A stretch of DNA of 28,198 nucleotides from Stramenopiles sp. TOSAG23-2 (Eukaryota; Sar), in the NCBI GenBank assembly GCA_900128395.1, contig LT649405.1, positions 1 through 28,198 of the forward strand. Direction: 5' to 3'. The notes below the pieces were generated by a model, which was not told the origin of the DNA, made no database searches, and was given only the letters and a program-made list of their open reading frames with translations. A program made the position numbers and the translations under genes. Position 1 is the first letter of the stretch; the number at the start of each line of letters is the position of its first letter. This document shows positions 9,938 through 28,198 of the stretch, in pieces.

Positions 9938-10091
9938 GTAGCATTTAATCATAGAAGAAGATTCTAGGTGTAGAGATATATATATAAGCATTTAATCATA
10001 GAAGAAGAAGAAGATTGTACGCTTCTCTCTCTCTCTGTATATATATATATATATATAAATACATTATTGATTGAAAAAACGTCTTTCACCA
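9938..10091 (+). promoter_or_regulatory. Leader/promoter of the Dicer-like gene with duplicated GAAGA block
   Basis: The block GCATTTAATCATAGAAGAAG occurs at 9941-9960 and 9988-10007, flanked by GAAGATTGTA. It is followed by a CT run (10023-10036) and a TA run (10039-10056) ending about 35 bp before the ATG. Other genes here (DUF3089, Sec6) also have TA plus CT/GA runs close to their ATG, so a short leader with a TATA-rich core promoter is plausible. Confidence 0.35.
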
Positions 10092-13000
10092 ATGAATAAT
10101 TTACCAACAACAACGATCCCACAATTGCCAACAGATTTTCCATTATCTGAATTATATGATGTATTGGAAAAAGTGAATATTATGATTCCAAATGGTAAAG
10201 GCCATTCGGTTGTGTTAAATCCACGTGCACAGGAAATACAATTTATGATAACATCCATTAATGTTATTTTAATCGATAATAATTACGTTTGTTTAGCAAA
10301 TTTTACCTACGATGAAGAAAAAGTATTGTTAGAAATACCAAATAGTGGATTTTGGTGTTCCTTTAAACGTGTTGTGGATGTCCTGTTGTGCCAAGAAACA
10401 GCTGAAAGAACTTTGAAGAAGCTTGCGGACATGGGATATGAAGGTTTTCATCCTGCATATTTTAATCGTGGTGCGAATAATAATCGTAAATTAAGAAGAC
10501 CAGCAAGTGTTCCAGTTGCTGCTTCACAAGTTCCACCTCCACGAGGTCCACAACAACTACCAATGGCACCAAATTTACCACCACAAGGTCCAAGAGGTGG
10601 TCCACGAGGTGGTCCACCTAATGATGATGACGACGATAAACAAAAAGAAGGAGATATTAACCCTGACTTGGTTTTTAAAACACGCAAACAAAAAAAAACA
10701 AATAACAAGAATACGGAAGAAGATAAAGGACATCAATATAAAAAGGAACAACAACAACGACACCAACAGCAACGACATATAAAAAAAACGGAGCCCAAGC
10801 AACAACCATGGGGTATGCAAACGAAAAAATCACCATGGGGACAACAACAAACAACGACTAAAAGCGAAAAACCTGTAAAACCATGGGGACTGCAAATGAA
10901 TGAATCTGTAAAACCATGGAGTGGAAAGAAATCAACCTCAACACCATGGGGACAAACAGCGACAGCTTCTAGTAAAAGTACATGGGGTACAACATTAAGA
11001 AAATCAGATGAAGAATATACTACGACCAAAAATATAAATAAAACAAAGACGCAAATGAAGGATATTTATTATGAAGGGACTAGTAGTGATGATTATGACG
11101 ATTATTTCTCGGAAGAAAACGATATCAATAATGGCGAAGAAAGTGAAAAGTTGCAGAGGGAAGAAAAAAATGATTTTCGTAATTCCATTTCTAACCCTCC
11201 TAACAACATAACCAAGAAAAAGAAAAAGAAAAAGAAAAAGAAAAAAGAGGACAAGACCCCAGTAATACTACAAAGTTACGAACCTATAATCAAACCGTCT
11301 GTAACAACAGCAACCACATTATCGTCGCATGGCGACAATGAAAGGAAAGAAAATCGTAAAGATTCGTTGCAAGATTCAAATGTGAGTCTGATCCAAAACG
11401 ACGCTGATATAGAGAAATCAGGTAACAATGATGACTTGATTCCAGAGGAAGGTAAAGTACGTCTTGGGACAGATATTTATGATGGTGCAAAAGCAATTAA
11501 AAAAATGTTGGCACATATGAGTGAAAAATATGATGAGATATTTAAACGTGATCGTACAAAAGAAGTTATTCCACTTGAACCAAATGATAAACAAGTCATA
11601 ATTGATTGTTTAAAATTTGATCCATCTGTTGACAATACCAAGATTCGTAACATTATGTATGGTAGATTTCCTAGTTTTCAATATGTTCAAATTAAATCGC
11701 GTCAAGGGAAAGCGAGAAAAGAAATATGGAAAAGACAAGATCGTGAAGAATCGTTTAAATATTTGCAATTTCCACTCAAATTTGGAAACTACAAGTCGAA
11801 AGTATGGGAGTTCATAAACGTTGATGACTTTAAAAACTATATTTACAATGAAAGGCGAATGGAAAATTGGCATTATAGGAAAGGAAAAGATGATGATAAG
11901 TTTTTGCAACATTGGTTTGTGACTTGGCAAAAATTAAAACGCACGGCATTGAAAATCCAACGCTGGTTCAGAAATTGCAAAAAGTATGATTTTTGGGGAA
12001 AAGAATTTACTGTAAGTCTTCAAGGCGATGCAAATAAAAAAAGAATTCATTTCATTCGCAAAGTAACAATATACAAAATTCCTCAGATATTGTATGAAGA
12101 GTATGATGCTGCAGGTAATAATTATGAATTGAAGCAATTTAAGAAGTCAAATGCAGTGCCAAATATGGATTTACTAAATCCAGGCATTCCAGGAGTGCAA
12201 CACAATATGCCGAAGCGAGAATATGACACGATATCACCATCCATGGTGGTACATCAACGGCATAAAAGAATTACTACATCGATTATTGATGAATTTGTAA
12301 GGCGTGATGTAAATTACAGAAAGTTCATTAATCACGTAAAAAATCGATCGGGAATTTATTTAAATGAAGCTGATCAAACGGATTTAATTAAACGCGGAGT
12401 GAAAGACGTAGACTTGGATACCTTTCAAAAAGAAGTCTTACTATTTACGATCAAAAGCAATCATGTAGGTATCGATCCGAATCTTGCTGTCACGTTGCCT
12501 GGTCTTACGAAGAGAAAGAAGTTAAATGAATTCCACAGTGAGCCTGGTTTATTTATTCCTGCAAAAACACCAGATAATAAAATTATTGGTGCGCAAATAA
12601 AGATATATAAGAACTCGGGGTGGAGAGAGCATACGTCAAAAAAATCTGAGATCGATAAAAAGTATGTTTGGTGGGGAAATAGCCTTTCCAATTCTGAACA
12701 ATGCGAATCTTACAATATTATCATGCGCGATTGCAAAGGTGTTGGACGTGTTGAAGATCCATTATTTTGCTGGCGAAATTTTGATCAACCTGCAAGCGAC
12801 GTAAAGACCATTGCGCTTTGTGAAGGCGCTTTGAAACCTGCGTTGGCATATTATTTTGCTAAAGATCGCGACTTTCGTTTTTTTGACAACCCGTCGAACA
12901 ATGATGATGATGATGATAATAAAAACGATGATATGGAGCGAAATGATATTCTTGGAGATACTACTTATAAACCGATTGATGCATGGGTTGGTGTAGTAGG

Positions 13001-16000
13001 TGGTGCATTCGAACACAATCGCGTTATGTTAAAATCGTATTTAAATCACTTTCCAAACTTGCAAAATGTAGTCATTGTTCCAGATGCAAATGCCGTCATG
13101 TTGGATGTGAAAATGTCACAGGGTGGTGTTTTAATTAATTTAGTAAAAGAAATTTTAAAAACTCGAAATGTATTGTGCCAAGACATGGAGATGACAGAAG
13201 ATTCGATTTTAGTGGCAACATGGCCGGAACAAAAGAGTCAGGATGAAAATGTGGAAGCGTTAGATATTGATGATTTATTAATGGTTCCAAGAAATATTAA
13301 CAAAATATCCATTATACCATGGAAACAATTTATTGAAGATGTCCATAATCTCGCTGATAAAAACGTCTCAAAAGAAGCGATTGCAGAATATGTGAAGGAA
13401 ACATACGCTAGTCGCCCAAGAGGTCAAAATCATGGCTCTACAATAATTGTCCCAGGAGACGATCTCATTGCATTACCTGAAAGCTCAAGGTTGAAAAAGA
13501 ATACAACAAATAGCAGCGATGCAATGCTTACGAATAATATTGGAAAAAAAGAGGACAAGAATGATCGTAAAAGTTTAGATCAAATGAAAGTCAGTAAAAC
13601 AACTTCATCGATATTACCTTCAAATGTTGTTTCTGTCAAGCCATCATTATCAAAAGTATCGAATATAGCAAATAAAATCGACTTGGGCAATAAATGTTTC
13701 TACACAATTGATGGTATAAATCAATATCGCTTTTCTTTATGCAAGAAATATGAAGTTGAATACAACACGGCATTCGGTCCACCAGAACAACAACATAATA
13801 CAATGAAAGATCAAATGTATGTTGACATCAAAGAACAAAACTTTTGGATTGATTGTTTGCGTTATCACGATGATTCGGTGAAAAAGTTGGAAAATTTAAA
13901 GAAAGTAATCTATGGATACGGAAATAAAAAAGGCGATGGTGCAACGTTGGAGCATTTTGCATCGGTCTTATTACTAAAAGAAGATGAAAAAGGCAATATT
14001 AGTAAAATTACATTTAGTATGAAAAAAATTATGAAAAAGCTAGGAAAAATTCTGAATAAAAATTTGAACTTGCAACCTGCAAAAGTAAAAAAGAAAAGTC
14101 AACCAGACAAAAATGTTAAATGTACTCCATCAAAAGCTCCATCACCAAAGGCCATTGAAAAAAACAGTGATTATGCTAAATATACTTCTGATACGCCAAC
14201 ACAGATGGATGAAAAGAAAACGACGAAAACACCTGGAATAAAAATGTACCGCTATTTGGTTGAAGTCTCGAAAACGTATCGAGGAGAGAAGATTCCATTT
14301 CAACAGCAAAATTGGCATTATGTTACATCAAAACCAGCCCTTCTTATTAAGAATCCATGTACCTGGGATACAACAGTATCGCAGTTGACAGACCGGGGTA
14401 CATATGAAGAAAAAAGAGGCCAGTACGACATTGAGGAAAATCAGAGGTACGATCGAAAGTTGGTACATAAAGTAGAAATTCTTAACGACGGGAAACCTTA
14501 TGAAATTCCATGGGATGATGACAATATAAGAAAACAAATTGTACATGCAGATTTGCTATTTTCAAAAGATTCAAAAGACTTCAGTAAATCTGCTACAGAA
14601 TCGAATTGGGTGTATTACATGCCGGATCTTTACAACGATGGTAACGATAATGAGAGTTTTCTTTGTTCCTTGAATAAATTACTTTCCAGTGATATTCATA
14701 AGGTATTTGATGGATTGAATGAAGAAACTGGTAAATTCAAAATTAATTCAAAGGTCTACAGCTCCATTCTTTTCTATAATCCTACATGCAATTTAATTGG
14801 TATTTGCAATCCAAGAGACAAATCGGAATATAAATCATTAAGAAGTCAGTGCTACCGAAAAGGCAAAAACTCAATTAGCTATAAAACTCATTATAGCAAG
14901 AAAGGATATAAGTTAATACATGAAAAACAGATGTTTCTACCTTTGCGTGGATTTCCAAAGACAAACGAAAAGATAGATATGATACCAGCAGAACTATTGT
15001 ACTTTCATTCCAAATTGACTACAAATCATTTTAAAACGTTGGATTTGTTGAAGAAATGGCATAAAGATGTTTTGCTTGGTGGTGAATTTTTACGAGTTGA
15101 AGGCAGATGGAAAAAAAAATTAACTGCTTCATTAAGTTCAAGTGGATTTGATTTTAAGTTGAAAGATGAGCGGTTGAATAAAGAAGTCAACATACACAAA
15201 TCATTTAGAGCTTCTCGTTATCCCGCAATGGATGACAATGGAAAAGATTTTTTAAATTATGAACGGTTGGAAACGCTTGGCGATGCTATTTTAGGATATT
15301 GCCTTGCAAGCCTTTTAACGTATACCTTTAAAAGTAACACTGCCTATGTTTGTTTCGTTCTACAAGCATTGTCTAGAAACAAAATATTGGCTGCGATCAA
15401 TCGGAAATTCAATATGTATTCCTTTTTGCAACATGTGGATTTGCCAAAAGATATAAATTCTCCTGGATTAAAAGATAAAATTTTAGCTGATCACGTTGAA
15501 GCATGGATTGGAGGGAAATATTTAGATACAGATATATCAGAAACACGTGCATGTATAGCTCATATGTTTTCTATCTGTACAGCAGAAGATTTATTTGAAT
15601 GCCTTGAAGATATGGAAACGGTGGAAAATACGATTTCATTTTCAACGGAGATGCGCAATTATATTGTCGATGTCGTGCATAGTTGGTCAAATCCGCGAAG
15701 TAGATTTGACAGTATTGCCCTTCAAAAGAAATTCGATATGAAACATCAACAATGGCTCTCCGAGTTACTTACAACAAGCAAATTAAAGCCACGAAACAAA
15801 GCAATGCAAATTGACGAGCATGACAATACCATTTTTAAGCAACACATCAAAAGATTGTCGAAATATTTGCCAGAACAAATAAACGTAAACACAGCATATT
15901 TAGCTATTTGCGACAACTTAATATCTCGCAAATTATCTCATGTTTTGAATATGTGGGGAAATCAACTTTTAAAACTTGTCGCAGTCGAATTTGCATTTAA

Positions 16001-16577
16001 TAAGAAATATGAATATATTGATTATCCTGACAAATATTATAAAAAACTCAATCCTGGCGATATTCATGGTTTTAAAAAGTTGTTCAGTTTTACTAAATAT
16101 CAAGATTCATGTGCACGATATGTATTTGAAGGGAGATTATTACGTAACATCCAAAAGATTACGGATGGTATAAAGGATACTGCAAATGATTTGCAAAATG
16201 AGGATCAAGTAAATGAGCGACATAGGCAAGCTGATTCCTTATTGAGAAAGAAATTTTATGTATTTGGTGCCTTTCTTGATGTATTTGATAGTAAAAATGT
16301 CAGTGGTAAATGTTCCAAGCTGTTTTTTAAAGACATTGTTATTGAAAGAATATTAAATGACTATGAATATTTAAGGACTGATTTTAGTCCTAGCAATCAA
16401 AGGAAAGTTTACAATGATGTTATGAAAAAAAGTTACCCTGGAAACAAACGAGTCATTGATCTAGAAGTTGATAGATTGAATAATTTGAATTTAGCTGATA
16501 TTTTTTCACATACTAATAATGATGATGGTAATAACAGTGATATTGTTGGAATAAAAAGAGAAGAGAAACTTGCGTAA
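10092..16577 (+). CDS. Dicer-like protein with WG repeats and Toprim/DUF3854 primase-type domain
   Basis: The 2161-residue single-exon product starts at the first ATG (10092). In order: an unrecognised N-terminal domain (1-130); a Pro/RGG-rich stretch (148-177); six Trp in PWG/PWS/TWG motifs (W240, 249, 265, 276, 286, 298) in a Ser/Thr/Lys/Gln-rich disordered region; a poly-Lys run (about 374-386); an IQ-like motif (IQRWFRNCKK, from 622); a DUF3854/CyRepA1-like Toprim region with PGLFIPAK (818), KYVWWG (858), ALCEGALKP (E911), VVIVPDANAV (D998) and DIDDLL (1058); a platform/PAZ-like part ending SYKTHYSKKGYKLIHEKQMF (1596-1615); and RNase III. The RNase III domain has ERLETLGDAIL and ADHVEAW, giving the four catalytic acids E1727, D1731, D1800 and E1803. 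A second RNase III-like domain reads LNMWGNQLL, with N1953/N1957 in place of Glu/Asp, and FGAFLD near 2059. It probably cuts dsRNA for silencing. No DExD/H helicase motifs or dsRBD are seen. The Toprim module could bind or prime nucleic acid; this is inference. Confidence 0.85.
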   Translation: MNNLPTTTIPQLPTDFPLSELYDVLEKVNIMIPNGKGHSVVLNPRAQEIQFMITSINVILIDNNYVCLANFTYDEEKVLLEIPNSGFWCSFKRVVDVLLCQETAERTLKKLADMGYEGFHPAYFNRGANNNRKLRRPASVPVAASQVPPPRGPQQLPMAPNLPPQGPRGGPRGGPPNDDDDDKQKEGDINPDLVFKTRKQKKTNNKNTEEDKGHQYKKEQQQRHQQQRHIKKTEPKQQPWGMQTKKSPWGQQQTTTKSEKPVKPWGLQMNESVKPWSGKKSTSTPWGQTATASSKSTWGTTLRKSDEEYTTTKNINKTKTQMKDIYYEGTSSDDYDDYFSEENDINNGEESEKLQREEKNDFRNSISNPPNNITKKKKKKKKKKKEDKTPVILQSYEPIIKPSVTTATTLSSHGDNERKENRKDSLQDSNVSLIQNDADIEKSGNNDDLIPEEGKVRLGTDIYDGAKAIKKMLAHMSEKYDEIFKRDRTKEVIPLEPNDKQVIIDCLKFDPSVDNTKIRNIMYGRFPSFQYVQIKSRQGKARKEIWKRQDREESFKYLQFPLKFGNYKSKVWEFINVDDFKNYIYNERRMENWHYRKGKDDDKFLQHWFVTWQKLKRTALKIQRWFRNCKKYDFWGKEFTVSLQGDANKKRIHFIRKVTIYKIPQILYEEYDAAGNNYELKQFKKSNAVPNMDLLNPGIPGVQHNMPKREYDTISPSMVVHQRHKRITTSIIDEFVRRDVNYRKFINHVKNRSGIYLNEADQTDLIKRGVKDVDLDTFQKEVLLFTIKSNHVGIDPNLAVTLPGLTKRKKLNEFHSEPGLFIPAKTPDNKIIGAQIKIYKNSGWREHTSKKSEIDKKYVWWGNSLSNSEQCESYNIIMRDCKGVGRVEDPLFCWRNFDQPASDVKTIALCEGALKPALAYYFAKDRDFRFFDNPSNNDDDDDNKNDDMERNDILGDTTYKPIDAWVGVVGGAFEHNRVMLKSYLNHFPNLQNVVIVPDANAVMLDVKMSQGGVLINLVKEILKTRNVLCQDMEMTEDSILVATWPEQKSQDENVEALDIDDLLMVPRNINKISIIPWKQFIEDVHNLADKNVSKEAIAEYVKETYASRPRGQNHGSTIIVPGDDLIALPESSRLKKNTTNSSDAMLTNNIGKKEDKNDRKSLDQMKVSKTTSSILPSNVVSVKPSLSKVSNIANKIDLGNKCFYTIDGINQYRFSLCKKYEVEYNTAFGPPEQQHNTMKDQMYVDIKEQNFWIDCLRYHDDSVKKLENLKKVIYGYGNKKGDGATLEHFASVLLLKEDEKGNISKITFSMKKIMKKLGKILNKNLNLQPAKVKKKSQPDKNVKCTPSKAPSPKAIEKNSDYAKYTSDTPTQMDEKKTTKTPGIKMYRYLVEVSKTYRGEKIPFQQQNWHYVTSKPALLIKNPCTWDTTVSQLTDRGTYEEKRGQYDIEENQRYDRKLVHKVEILNDGKPYEIPWDDDNIRKQIVHADLLFSKDSKDFSKSATESNWVYYMPDLYNDGNDNESFLCSLNKLLSSDIHKVFDGLNEETGKFKINSKVYSSILFYNPTCNLIGICNPRDKSEYKSLRSQCYRKGKNSISYKTHYSKKGYKLIHEKQMFLPLRGFPKTNEKIDMIPAELLYFHSKLTTNHFKTLDLLKKWHKDVLLGGEFLRVEGRWKKKLTASLSSSGFDFKLKDERLNKEVNIHKSFRASRYPAMDDNGKDFLNYERLETLGDAILGYCLASLLTYTFKSNTAYVCFVLQALSRNKILAAINRKFNMYSFLQHVDLPKDINSPGLKDKILADHVEAWIGGKYLDTDISETRACIAHMFSICTAEDLFECLEDMETVENTISFSTEMRNYIVDVVHSWSNPRSRFDSIALQKKFDMKHQQWLSELLTTSKLKPRNKAMQIDEHDNTIFKQHIKRLSKYLPEQINVNTAYLAICDNLISRKLSHVLNMWGNQLLKLVAVEFAFNKKYEYIDYPDKYYKKLNPGDIHGFKKLFSFTKYQDSCARYVFEGRLLRNIQKITDGIKDTANDLQNEDQVNERHRQADSLLRKKFYVFGAFLDVFDSKNVSGKCSKLFFKDIVIERILNDYEYLRTDFSPSNQRKVYNDVMKKSYPGNKRVIDLEVDRLNNLNLADIFSHTNNDDGNNSDIVGIKREEKLA

Positions 16578-22548: not shown

Positions 22549-23180
22549 GTTCTATAATATCAATCTCTCTCTCTCTCTCTATCTATATATATGTTTTTTG
22601 AATCCTAACTTTACTAGCAATACATATATCGTTTTGCAAACGTGATGTAGAGGATCAATTTATATATATATATATATAAATTCACAATAGCAACAATATA
22701 TCTCGACGAATGACTTCTTTTTAAACATCTTTCTTGTTTCCCATTTATTCCATTTATTTGATGGCATTAATTTTGTATTAATATAAATATCCGCATATCA
22801 AGGATTTATCAGGAATGAACTTTTACCATCTTTCTTGTTTCCCATTTATTCCATTTATTTGATGGCATTAATTTTGTATAAATATCCGCATAGCGAAAGG
22901 ATTTACAATATCAGGAATGAACTTTTAATTTATTACATGTTGTTGTGGTGTGCATGTAGTAGTGATGGAATAGATAGAAAGGTAGACGGGCGGATAGAAC
23001 GGAATAGTAGACATTGTTGTTTATCATTTTATTTATTTAGTGCTTTATATTATTTTTTACATTTTTTATAGGTTTCACGTTCTTTATTACATTTTTTACA
23101 GGTTTCATATTTTTTACAGGTTTCATACCCTGTTTATCAATTTGTTTTTTAGGAACTATATATTAGGATCTAGATTTACG
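22549..23180. promoter_or_regulatory. Region between Sec6 and four-TM gene A, with 100-bp tandem repeat
   Basis: This region holds a GA/CT run upstream of Sec6 (22564-22580) and an AT palindrome at about 22657-22681. A tandem repeat of about 100 bp follows (22726-22826 and 22827-22928, starting CATCTTTCTTGTTTCCCATT). After it comes a leader conserved with copy B (about 22960-23035), then three copies of ATTTTTTA(T/C)AGGTTTCA at 23061, 23091 and 23109. The last look like 3' splice acceptors. AAAG|GTAGAC at about 22978-22986 is a possible donor of a 5' UTR intron ending at TAG before GATCTAGA. Confidence 0.55.
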
Positions 23181-23918
23181 ATGTCGTCAGATATACCATA
23201 TGCATATGCTGCACCAGCGGTTGTATATGGAATCGTAGTGGAAGATCCAAGAGCAGCGATATTAGTACGCCGTGTATTAAATTTATCTATTGTTATGGGG
23301 ATTTTGGGAATCGTTTCAGTCATTATACGAACAAGTATGCCACATCCACAGTTGGGAAATAACAATTATAGTGGTGATGAACAAAACTTGGGATCGGGAA
23401 TATTTTATGTGTGTTGTGCATTACTTGTTCCTTGTTGTGGTTATTTTGGTGCAAAACAACGTGACCGAGGTCTCTTAACAATGTTTTGGATCTGTAATTG
23501 TATTGGAAGCTGTTGCTCAGCTTTTGGAGTTTTTGGCTTCATAATAGGCAGTTATATAATCAAAGGAGCTACTAATTGTGCTTGTAAGGACTCGAACATG
23601 GGAGGGAACTCAACAACGACAGACAAGCTAATATTTTTTAGTCCAGTAACGGGAGATTGTTTTATGGCTGACGACAGAACCAGTTACACATGCAAGGACA
23701 TGCACGATTACAACAATATGGTTACATTTATTACCATTGTATATCTTATTAACACGTTGTTAGGATGCGCCGGTTGTATCTATGGCAGAGAATTGACACA
23801 ACAAAGAACATTTGTTGAAATGAGAACTGAATATACAGCTACACCAATTGGTACAATGGAAGCAAACGATGTACAAAAAAACGGTGGTGTGACTACTGAT
23901 TATGCAGAGTTAAAATAA
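23181..23918 (+). CDS. Four-TM cysteine-rich protein, copy A
   Basis: The 245-residue protein is taken from the ATG at 23181 (MSSDIPYAYA...). That codon is conserved in copy B, while the open frame upstream is not. It has four hydrophobic segments (about 30-52, 73-92, 100-130 and 185-208) with short ends. Loop 1 between TM1 and TM2 is Asn-rich. Loop 2 between TM3 and TM4 contains Cys residues (NCACKDSN, DCFM, TCKD) and fits an extracellular loop closed by disulfides. This is a tetraspanin/claudin-like topology, but I see no CCG signature and assign no family. A short cytosolic tail ends DYAELK. Compared with copy B it carries a 10-residue insertion in loop 2. The function is unknown; surface or vesicle membrane is likely. 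Confidence 0.75.
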   Translation: MSSDIPYAYAAPAVVYGIVVEDPRAAILVRRVLNLSIVMGILGIVSVIIRTSMPHPQLGNNNYSGDEQNLGSGIFYVCCALLVPCCGYFGAKQRDRGLLTMFWICNCIGSCCSAFGVFGFIIGSYIIKGATNCACKDSNMGGNSTTTDKLIFFSPVTGDCFMADDRTSYTCKDMHDYNNMVTFITIVYLINTLLGCAGCIYGRELTQQRTFVEMRTEYTATPIGTMEANDVQKNGGVTTDYAELK

Positions 23919-25020: not shown

Positions 25021-25298
25021 GTTATAGAATAGTAATAAATGTAACCTTTAGTAAAACCTGGGGGGAAAGATAAAAATTTCCCTTGTAAAAATCCTGATAC
25101 ATGATAATTTCAGCATTTTTTTTTTTTTAATAAAATAATAAATTTTCAACATAAAATAAATAATCTATTTTAATTTACATGTAGTGTAAGTGATGGAATA
25201 GATAGAAAGGTAGACGGGCGGATAGAACGAAATAGTAGACATTGTTGTTTATCATTTATTTATTTTTTTATATATATATTATAGGATCTAGATTCACA
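25021..25298. promoter_or_regulatory. Leader of four-TM gene B
   Basis: The first part (25021-25177) has no clear match to unit A. From about 25178 the sequence matches the gene A leader: GTGATGGAATAGATAGAAAG, then GTAGACGGGCGGATAGAACG. After a T/TA run ending TATAG, GATCTAGATT(T/C)AC leads into the ATG. The AAAG|GTAGAC and TATAG signals could bound a short 5' UTR intron. Confidence 0.4.
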
Positions 25299-26006
25299 AT
25301 GTCGTCAGATATACCATATGCATATGCTGCACCAGCGGTCGTATATGGAATCGTAGTGGAAGATCCAAGAGCAGCGATATTAGTACGCCGTGTATTAAAT
25401 TTATCTATTGTTATGGGGATTTTGGGAATCGTTTCAGTCATTATACAAACAAGTATGCCACATCCACAGTTGGGAAATAACGTTAGTTATAGTAATGAAC
25501 AAAACTTGGGATCGGGAATATTTTATGTGTGTTGTGCATTACTTGTTCCTTGTTGTGGTTATTTTGGTGCAAAACAACGTGACCGAGGTCTCTTAACAAT
25601 GTTTTGGATCTGTAATTGTATTGGAAGTTGTTGCTCAGTTTTTGGAGTTTTTGGCTTCCTAATGATCAGTTATATAGTCAAAGGAGCTACTAATTGTGCT
25701 TGTAAGGACTCGAACAAGCCATTTTTTAATCCAGGAACGGGAGATTGTTTTATGGCTGACGACAGAACCAGTTACACATGCAAGGACATGCATGATTACA
25801 ACAATATGGTTACATTTATTACCATTGTATATCTTATTAACACGTTGTTAGGATGCGCCGGTTGTATCTATGGCAGAGAATTGACACAACAAAGAACATT
25901 TGTTGAAATGAGAACTGAATATACAGCTACACCAATTGGTACAATGGAAGCAAACGATGTACAAAAAAACGGTGGTGTGACTACTGATTATGCAGAGTTA
26001 AAATAA
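25299..26006 (+). CDS. Four-TM cysteine-rich protein, copy B
   Basis: The 235-residue paralogue of copy A has the same four-TM layout, cysteine pattern and C-terminus (DYAELK). Nearly all differences are amino-acid changes in loop 1 (NNNYSGDE versus NNVSYSNE), TM3 (for example A to V, IIG to LMI) and loop 2, where SNMGGNSTTTDKLIFFSPV becomes SNKPFFNPG. After loop 2 the two genes are almost identical at the DNA level, apart from a silent CAC/CAT change, and the match continues into the 3' region. The ATG at 25299 is chosen because it is shared with copy A. The function is unknown. The two genes are transcribed in the same direction. Confidence 0.75.
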   Translation: MSSDIPYAYAAPAVVYGIVVEDPRAAILVRRVLNLSIVMGILGIVSVIIQTSMPHPQLGNNVSYSNEQNLGSGIFYVCCALLVPCCGYFGAKQRDRGLLTMFWICNCIGSCCSVFGVFGFLMISYIVKGATNCACKDSNKPFFNPGTGDCFMADDRTSYTCKDMHDYNNMVTFITIVYLINTLLGCAGCIYGRELTQQRTFVEMRTEYTATPIGTMEANDVQKNGGVTTDYAELK

Positions 26007-27723: not shown

Positions 27724-28198
27724 GGTTTATTTATTAATAATATTGAATAATATTTTGTTAAATGTAAATATTGTTCTACGTCTATGTGTAGATGCATTAA
27801 CATATTTTGTATATATACTGGTATATTTTTAAATTTATATAAAATCATAAATCAAAATTTAAATTAAAATTATTATTATTTATTAAAAATTGGTAACTAA
27901 AGCTATACTTATTAGAATACTCTATTATGTTTTTTTCTTTCTCTTGATTTTTTACTAAAATGGACTAAAGCTAAACTTATATAGAACTCCCAGAACTCTA
28001 TTTTACACATTTCTGTCTTGATTTTTGCGGAAGGTTTGGATCCGTCTTCATTCTACTAAACCTTGTAACCTTGTAAATGAGAAGGATTATTGTGCATTTC
28101 AAAATGGTGCTTAATTTAAGTACTAATTTAGTGTACTAATTTATGTATATTTGATAGAGAGGTATTGGATATTACAAAAAATCGGATATTCTTAGTTT
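27724..28198. other. Intergenic end of window
   Basis: AT-rich region upstream of the TPGS1-like gene. It holds an imperfect direct repeat (AACTAAAGCTATACTTATTA at 27894-27913 and GACTAAAGCTAAACTTATAT at 27962-27981), and at about 28126-28144 a stretch TAATTTAGTGTACTAATTTAT that nearly matches 9688-9708. No gene is seen. Confidence 0.5.

Follow-up and report, generated by a model that had tools for sequence, protein, structure and literature searches.

A stretch of 28,198 nucleotides from Stramenopiles sp. TOSAG23-2 (assembly GCA_900128395.1, contig LT649405.1; in the following, the window) encodes a protein, here called P0001, in which a primase-type module of the Toprim kind is joined to an RNase III domain in a single chain. 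Both parts are of known kinds, and it is their combination that appears to be new: judged by titles and abstracts, literature searches aimed at it brought up no RNase III protein with a primase-type or Toprim domain. The fusion architecture is almost certainly real, and the module is, by its sequence profile, very probably kin to the Toprims of cyanobacterial plasmid Rep proteins. We hypothesize that P0001 may be an enzyme processing double-stranded RNA (dsRNA) whose plasmid-type primase module handles, and perhaps extends, its substrate, a proposal which we consider evenly balanced.

One chain in four proteins

The open reading frame (ORF) at 10071-16577 on the forward strand starts with TTG at 10071 and is free of stops for 2168 codons. 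The first Met, at nucleotide 10092, yields exactly the 2161 residues stated in an earlier note on this DNA; residue numbers are counted here from the start of the ORF, which corresponds to the numbers of that note plus 7. The motif series described there is found in this frame, namely PGL-x-IPA (PGLFIPA, 825), CEGALKP (917), GVVGGAF (974), VPDANAV (1003) and DIDDLL (1065). The note was likewise right in placing this series N-terminal to the nuclease part in the same chain, an arrangement that is repeated in two diverged proteins.

A protein search with 4810 candidates returned three relatives, P0002, P0003 and P0004, with 99%, 42% and 32% identity to P0001 in the alignment. All three are listed on other contigs and keep the same order of parts in a single chain. 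P0002 (2157 amino acids) has the extent of P0001 except for 4 gap columns and the residues before Met8. P0003 and P0004 are diverged sequences from metagenomes, presumed to be eukaryotic, and in each of them a single chain holds both the motif series and RNase III. Because two such distant relatives share the fusion, it is to be seen as a kept invention and not as an assembly error. Identity to P0001 is highest in the two halves of the primase-type part (P0003: 50% and 53%; P0004: 41% and 42%) and in RNase III (57% and 48%, respectively), and lower in all regions outside these parts (0-46%). With identity peaking in the two enzymatic parts of diverged homologues, a chimera and a decayed passenger are both very improbable. 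Between P0001 and P0002 there are 23 substitutions in total, nine of them N-terminal and four in the primase-type part (three of these at 932-963, in or near an acidic insert), with none in RNase III and none in the C-terminal tail.

An assembly chimera, or two adjacent genes read as one, would fit the fragmented state of the source assembly (17.45 Mb in 793 contigs). However, the frame contains no stops and P0002, P0003 and P0004 preserve the order in one chain on contigs of their own, so that this explanation appears virtually negligible. Three protein searches gave only P0002-P0004 as fusion homologues, and such searches would miss a fusion that is interrupted by introns or whose length falls outside the range. 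In one of them the whole alignment served as query and the 7998 candidates sharing most words were scored, returning P0002 alone; the words probably came from the low-complexity N-terminus.

Fold and active site of the primase-type module

A model of the stretch 12216-13421, computed by AlphaFold2 from three sequences and compared by Foldseek and VIA-align, displays the fold of the DnaG RNA-polymerase domain, with 10-15% identity to the DnaG rows. The comparison with Toprim folds that the earlier note proposed thus gives a DnaG/Toprim-type fold at moderate confidence. No profile library that was searched names the module.

Conservation of the active site was read from 27 rows, comprising 3 fusion and 24 bacterial sequences, using the acids that define a Toprim/DnaG-type primase motif. 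The Toprim Glu, the first Toprim Asp and both Asp of the third acidic motif are invariant (Table 1), as is the Lys of EGxxK (27/27). In the KYxW motif of the N-terminal subdomain, the first residue is K or R and the second Y throughout the bacterial rows (24/24). The second acid of DxD is absent in every row: its place is taken by Asn in P0001 and by Gly in all others (24 bacterial sequences, P0003 and P0004). The earlier note had correctly read an Asn here, but the usual form of the family is Gly, and Asn belongs to the lineage of the window only. Since Gly is found in 24/24 bacteria and in two of the three fusion rows, the loss is probably older than the fusion. The absence of this acid looks ancestral from these sequences; the family that shares it includes working plasmid Reps, and by itself it is no sign of decay. 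All 28 bacterial frames contain CxxC within their first 200 residues, which we interpret as a zinc ribbon. Retention of the other acids speaks against a dead scaffold, and the missing second acid and zinc ribbon speak against ordinary priming.

Kinship with cyanobacterial plasmid Rep proteins

Searched against plasmids by tblastn (E limit 10), the module matched 7 records, all of the order Nostocales, with a best E of 0.02, which is weak alone. Six of the 7 matches span 91-97% of the query, and all fall in "hypothetical proteins", of 1225 and 1226 amino acids in two complete frames. Their common block reads ELPLFCWK..CEGALK..IGTA..LKDYL..PDAGA..LDIDELL..R..EIKL. Among genome contigs, 15 loci were matched, in cyanobacterial genera which we take to be Nostocales.

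With a profile of the three fusion sequences, 22 of the 28 such proteins score E<=0.0036 (2.3e-8 at best, in a search space set to 100000), and a control of 1120 shuffles and 28 reversed sequences gave a best E of 27. Six proteins were above 0.0036 or unscored: L035, L043, L038, L039, L036 and L040, the last not being listed. The E-values of L016-L035, most of the 28, are not independent, as L016-L020 were picked by similarity to the window and L021-L035 with an alignment containing it. A search with L016 as the sole query, without the window sequence, listed 40 rows (72 records), from which eight proteins were chosen as L036-L043; of these, L041, L042 and L037 score E<=0.0036 singly against the fusion profile. 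By hhalign, in single comparisons each, the module matches 16 L016-like proteins at 98.9%, L036-L043 (n=8) at 99.4% and all 24 at 99.7%, the last over query columns 29-377. Two plasmids are present twice (L020/L027 and L019/L033), and the 24 bacterial rows used for hhalign, tree and active site omit L020, L027, L033 and L035 (859 amino acids). In an unrooted tree of 27 rows a long branch (1.77) separates the three fusion sequences from the rest, and the tree is therefore silent on the direction of module transfer.

NCBIfam CyRepA1 was matched in 3 of 6 scanned relatives (L036 4.7e-92, L038 2.0e-67, L043 8.3e-67), in the helicase part behind the module. The label "CyRepA1-like" of the earlier note hence applies indirectly, in that some CyRepA1 proteins begin with a relative of the module. 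L040 lies on plasmid pSYSX at 27957-31322, adjoining a duplication that ends at 27,731, and by this position we infer that it is Slr6031/CyRepX1. It joins the set of relatives via L016 (27% identity, 3e-15). Slr6031/CyRepX1 is needed for autonomous replication of a test plasmid, and a stop in the gene gives no colonies; CyRepX1 and CyRepX2 were both shown to drive replication (PMC10899382, partial text). The same source reports two similar Reps on pSYSX, for which the L016 search listed one matching place. It describes a similarity to helicases, and the words "primase" and "Toprim" are absent from its main text. Our comparison suggests, beyond what that paper says, that CyRepX-type proteins begin with a primase-type module made up of zinc ribbon and Toprim. 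The N-termini of CyRepX-type and some CyRepA1-family proteins look like zinc ribbon plus Toprim and are unnamed by Pfam in the 10 that were scanned. At least two kinds of N-terminus seem to occur among CyRepA1 proteins, DUF3854 and the present module. On pSYSX (26096-31322), the presumed CyRepX1 gene has genes of the siphovirus Gp157 and Rad52/Rad22 families upstream of it.

The earlier note had assigned the module to Toprim/DUF3854. Profile kinship and model uphold the Toprim, primase-type half of this, whereas membership of DUF3854 is not supported: Pfam gives no match to PF12965 in the primase region at E<=10, nor to DUF3854 at E<=1 in any of L036-L043. The N-termini of 12 plasmid proteins similar to the CyRepA1 protein Slr7037, which is described as DUF3854 (PMC10079941, partial text), match the module at 0.3% by hhalign, and the fusion profile scores these 12 proteins at a best E of 210. 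DUF3854 was thus discarded as the immediate family. Taken together, the 24 bacterial relatives match the same 12 N-termini at 79% over 120 columns, which makes a distant tie between module and DUF3854 likely.

A viral origin was considered and rejected, since three scans of viral contigs (two with the same two patterns) gave no relative. Against phages, tblastn gave one chance-level match (E 4, in two copies of one phage record), and none with a bacterial relative as query. A structure search of a viral library returned phage primases, as expected for a DnaG fold.

The RNase III part and the Dicer question

Pfam matches two RNase III families above their cut-offs, PF14622 (9.5e-11, best stretch 1699-1831) and PF00636 (1.4e-9, 1731-1820). 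The motifs YERLExLGD and ADxVEAWIG are present in 4/4 family proteins and contain E1734, D1738, D1807 and E1810, presumably the catalytic acids of RNase III. With a profile of three family members, a search of the PDB ranks Drosha at the top (8.6e-14) by adding the matches to its two domains, at 29.3 and 22.5 bits. Among single-domain matches the best one shown is to a bacterial RNase III, with 48.6 bits (3e-12), and the E-values of Dicers range from 1.7e-8 to 0.029. The rank of Drosha is no sign of a second domain, because the one RNase III domain of P0001 matches both Drosha domains.

The earlier note spoke of a Dicer-like protein with a PAZ-like domain, and neither term is borne out. On the whole chain, Pfam lists the two RNase III families only (E<=10), with no DExD/H helicase and no dsRNA-binding domain (dsRBD). 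Pfam and PDB profile searches of the region upstream of RNase III give no PAZ, although a divergent one might escape them; a PAZ-like ending seen by eye, SYxxHY..KG...IPAE, is unsupported by them. A second RNase III domain was not detected, the C-terminal tail being without an hhalign match to RNase III, and a WGN..LK segment, noticed by eye as a possible decayed RNase III signature, found no support from phmmer against the PDB or hhalign. The identity of P0001 as a Dicer is hence unproven. The former PAZ-like region is conserved nevertheless (residues 1390-1660: 46% identity to P0003, 32% to P0004). The C-terminal tail gives no PDB match by phmmer, and its AlphaFold2 model, with a predicted local distance difference test (pLDDT) value of 36, was not used.

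DUF3223-like regions and WG repeats

In P0004, residues 717-785 match PF11523 (DUF3223) with E 2.2e-8. Among six segments compared by phmmer, region 2 of the window protein aligns with this segment at about 1e-7, and repeat 1 at 3.2e-4 and 4e-4. The segments of the window itself give no significant Pfam match, which is reached in P0004 only. Region 2 is largely missing from P0003. In P0001, P0003 and P0004 alike, a weaker DUF3223-like repeat precedes the primase module. DUF3223, also called DeCL, is found in subunits of plant Pol IV and Pol V (PMC6753494), aids folding of precursor transfer RNA (pre-tRNA) as part of the Tetrahymena La protein Mlp1 (PMC9705548), and occurs as HamC adjoining Hachiman defence genes (PMC8565338), all according to partial texts.

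The low-complexity N-terminus of P0001 contains five tryptophan-glycine (WG) dipeptides, a count reached in 9 of 20000 shuffles of residues 1-458. P0003 has 3 WG in residues 1-250 (46/20000 shuffles). WG repeats bind Argonaute, and this stretch resembles a putative Argonaute-hook platform.

Table 1. Coordinates of P0001 and its parts in the window.
Feature	Position	Strand	Basis or remark
RNase III-primase fusion protein (P0001)	10092..16577	+	first Met to stop, 2161 amino acids
Five WG dipeptides (residues 247, 256, 272, 293, 305)	10809..10988	+	low-complexity N-terminus
DUF3223-like repeat 1 (residues 458-560), weak	11442..11750	+	phmmer against P0004 segment
Primase-type module (DnaG RNA-polymerase fold, CyRepX/CyRepA-type Toprim), residues 744-1092	12300..13346	+	model, hhalign
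KY of KYxW (K864, Y865), N-terminal subdomain	12660..12665	+	invariant in fusion-family alignment
E918, Toprim Glu of EGALKP	12822..12824	+	Glu in 27/27 rows
D1005-A-N1007, first Toprim Asp kept, second acid absent	13083..13091	+	Asp in 27/27 rows
D1065-I-D1067, third acidic motif	13263..13271	+	both Asp in 27/27 rows
DUF3223-like region 2 (residues 1203-1335)	13677..14075	+	aligned with DUF3223 of P0004
Conserved region upstream of RNase III (earlier "PAZ-like")	14241..15140	+	identity of homologues
RNase III domain	15165..15563	+	Pfam; E1734, D1738, D1807, E1810 of catalytic motifs
Conserved C-terminal tail	15621..16574	+	35% / 21% identity (P0003 / P0004)

Neighbouring genes

Six of 8 neighbouring frames have a Pfam match (DUF3089, MBOAT, MatE, MAPEG, Sec6 of the exocyst, and TPGS1_C), and the presence of Sec6 and TPGS1 among them identifies the contig as eukaryotic. 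Two adjacent frames of the same orientation, 23040-23918 and 25242-26006 (+), look very similar by eye and resemble membrane proteins; they are apparently a recent tandem duplication.

Possible function

As we picture it, P0001 would act as a dsRNA-processing nuclease whose primase-type module binds metal ions and a strand of nucleic acid through its acidic site. The module would then present the substrate for cleavage by RNase III, or make it locally double-stranded. DUF3223-like regions may add RNA binding or folding, and WG repeats, where present, may hand the products to an Argonaute-type partner. The setting would most likely be a path of small RNAs or of transposon or virus surveillance; for a small-RNA role as such our confidence is tentative. 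Active polymerisation by the module seems unlikely, and we give a slight preference to mere binding over active primer synthesis.

Several observations weigh against this proposal. The model of the module has a mean pLDDT of only 57.6 and was built on three sequences, and the primase region, as single sequence or profile, gives no significant sequence match in Pfam or PDB. The acid set of the Toprim core is incomplete, and P0001 contains no CxxC anywhere, in contrast to the bacterial N-termini, so that priming may have been lost. Of the single-domain matches to the RNase III part in the PDB, the best is a bacterial enzyme rather than a Dicer, and the failure to find PAZ or a second RNase III domain leaves room for a housekeeping role in RNA processing. 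P0004 has no WG in its N-terminus, where only 45 amino acids precede the conserved part. Neither Piwi nor an RNA-dependent RNA polymerase (RdRP) was found in the assembly, the RdRP search being silent in control genomes too, and RNase III has one match there and no further one. The assembly does, however, yield only 7 proteasome-family matches, each one open frame at full profile length, and eukaryotes have 14 proteasome subunits. This suggests an intron-poor genome in a roughly half-complete assembly, and the absences of Piwi, RdRP and further RNase III accordingly mean little.

A rival explanation is a housekeeping RNase III, a processor of ribosomal or small nucleolar RNA in an Rnt1- or Drosha-like role, with a captured, non-catalytic primase fold as RNA-binding scaffold and no RNA interference. 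A single RNase III match in the assembly, the lack of Piwi, the bacterial enzymes as best single-domain matches (Dicers, and Drosha with its two summed matches, being weaker or further down), and the link of DUF3223 to pre-tRNA folding in Mlp1 would all agree with it. On the other hand, invariance of the Toprim Glu, the first Asp and D-x-D is unusual for a pure scaffold, WG repeats are present in two of three lineages, and single copy and missing Piwi count for little in an incomplete assembly; we judge this explanation unlikely, if still to be reckoned with. At the opposite end, the module could copy a template into short RNA, and RNase III could cut the resulting duplex, in place of an RdRP. 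The modelled DnaG RNA-polymerase-domain fold, the invariant acids and the lack of an RdRP match would be compatible with such a scheme, but the second DxD acid and CxxC are missing and the RdRP result is weak. Moreover, we found no report of priming by the bacterial relatives, the function of DUF3854 being called unknown in the partial text of PMC10079941 and neither primase nor Toprim being named in the main text of the CyRepX study, and we regard the scheme as distinctly improbable. Even less credence is given to a complete one-chain maker of small RNAs, in which the module would copy or prime on invading single-stranded nucleic acid, RNase III would cut, and WG repeats would deliver to Argonaute with no need of an RdRP.

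Comparison with known systems

The closest systems to the module are CyRepX-type and part of the CyRepA1 Reps (L040 of pSYSX; L036, L038 and L043), which share the same Toprim module by profile as well as the motif series and the D-x-G form seen in P0003 and P0004. They differ in the N-terminal CxxC that P0001 lacks, and in that L036, L038 and L043 carry the CyRepA1 helicase part (NF042913), for which NCBIfam on P0001 lists RNase III alone (E<=10). Conversely, Pfam finds no RNase III in 10 scanned cyanobacterial Reps. Further systems compared for the module are the RNA-polymerase domain of bacterial DnaG, phage T7 gp4, the T4 primosome chain and Twinkle; relative to DnaG-type primases, which it resembles at the low identity given above, P0001 has no second DxD acid, no CxxC and no helicase.

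With RNase III, Drosha and Dicer, P0001 has the RNase III domain and its catalytic motifs in common. It differs from Drosha and Dicer in the one RNase III domain detected and in having a primase-type module instead of PAZ, helicase and dsRBD, none of which Pfam detects. The C-terminus of the plant Pol V subunit NRPE1 combines a DUF3223-type (DeCL) region with WG repeats, as seen here (PMC6753494, partial text), but P0001 is not a polymerase subunit and is joined to RNase III. The DUF3223 link of the window rests on alignment with P0004, which is itself without the WG repeats; DeCL is called plant-specific in the same partial text, and DUF3223 of Pfam is not.

Were the module active, the making of a strand and the cutting of a duplex would be coupled in one enzyme, and RNA silencing could start without RdRP. 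Even if it is inactive, a module of the kind used in plasmid replication has been joined to a eukaryotic RNA-processing enzyme.

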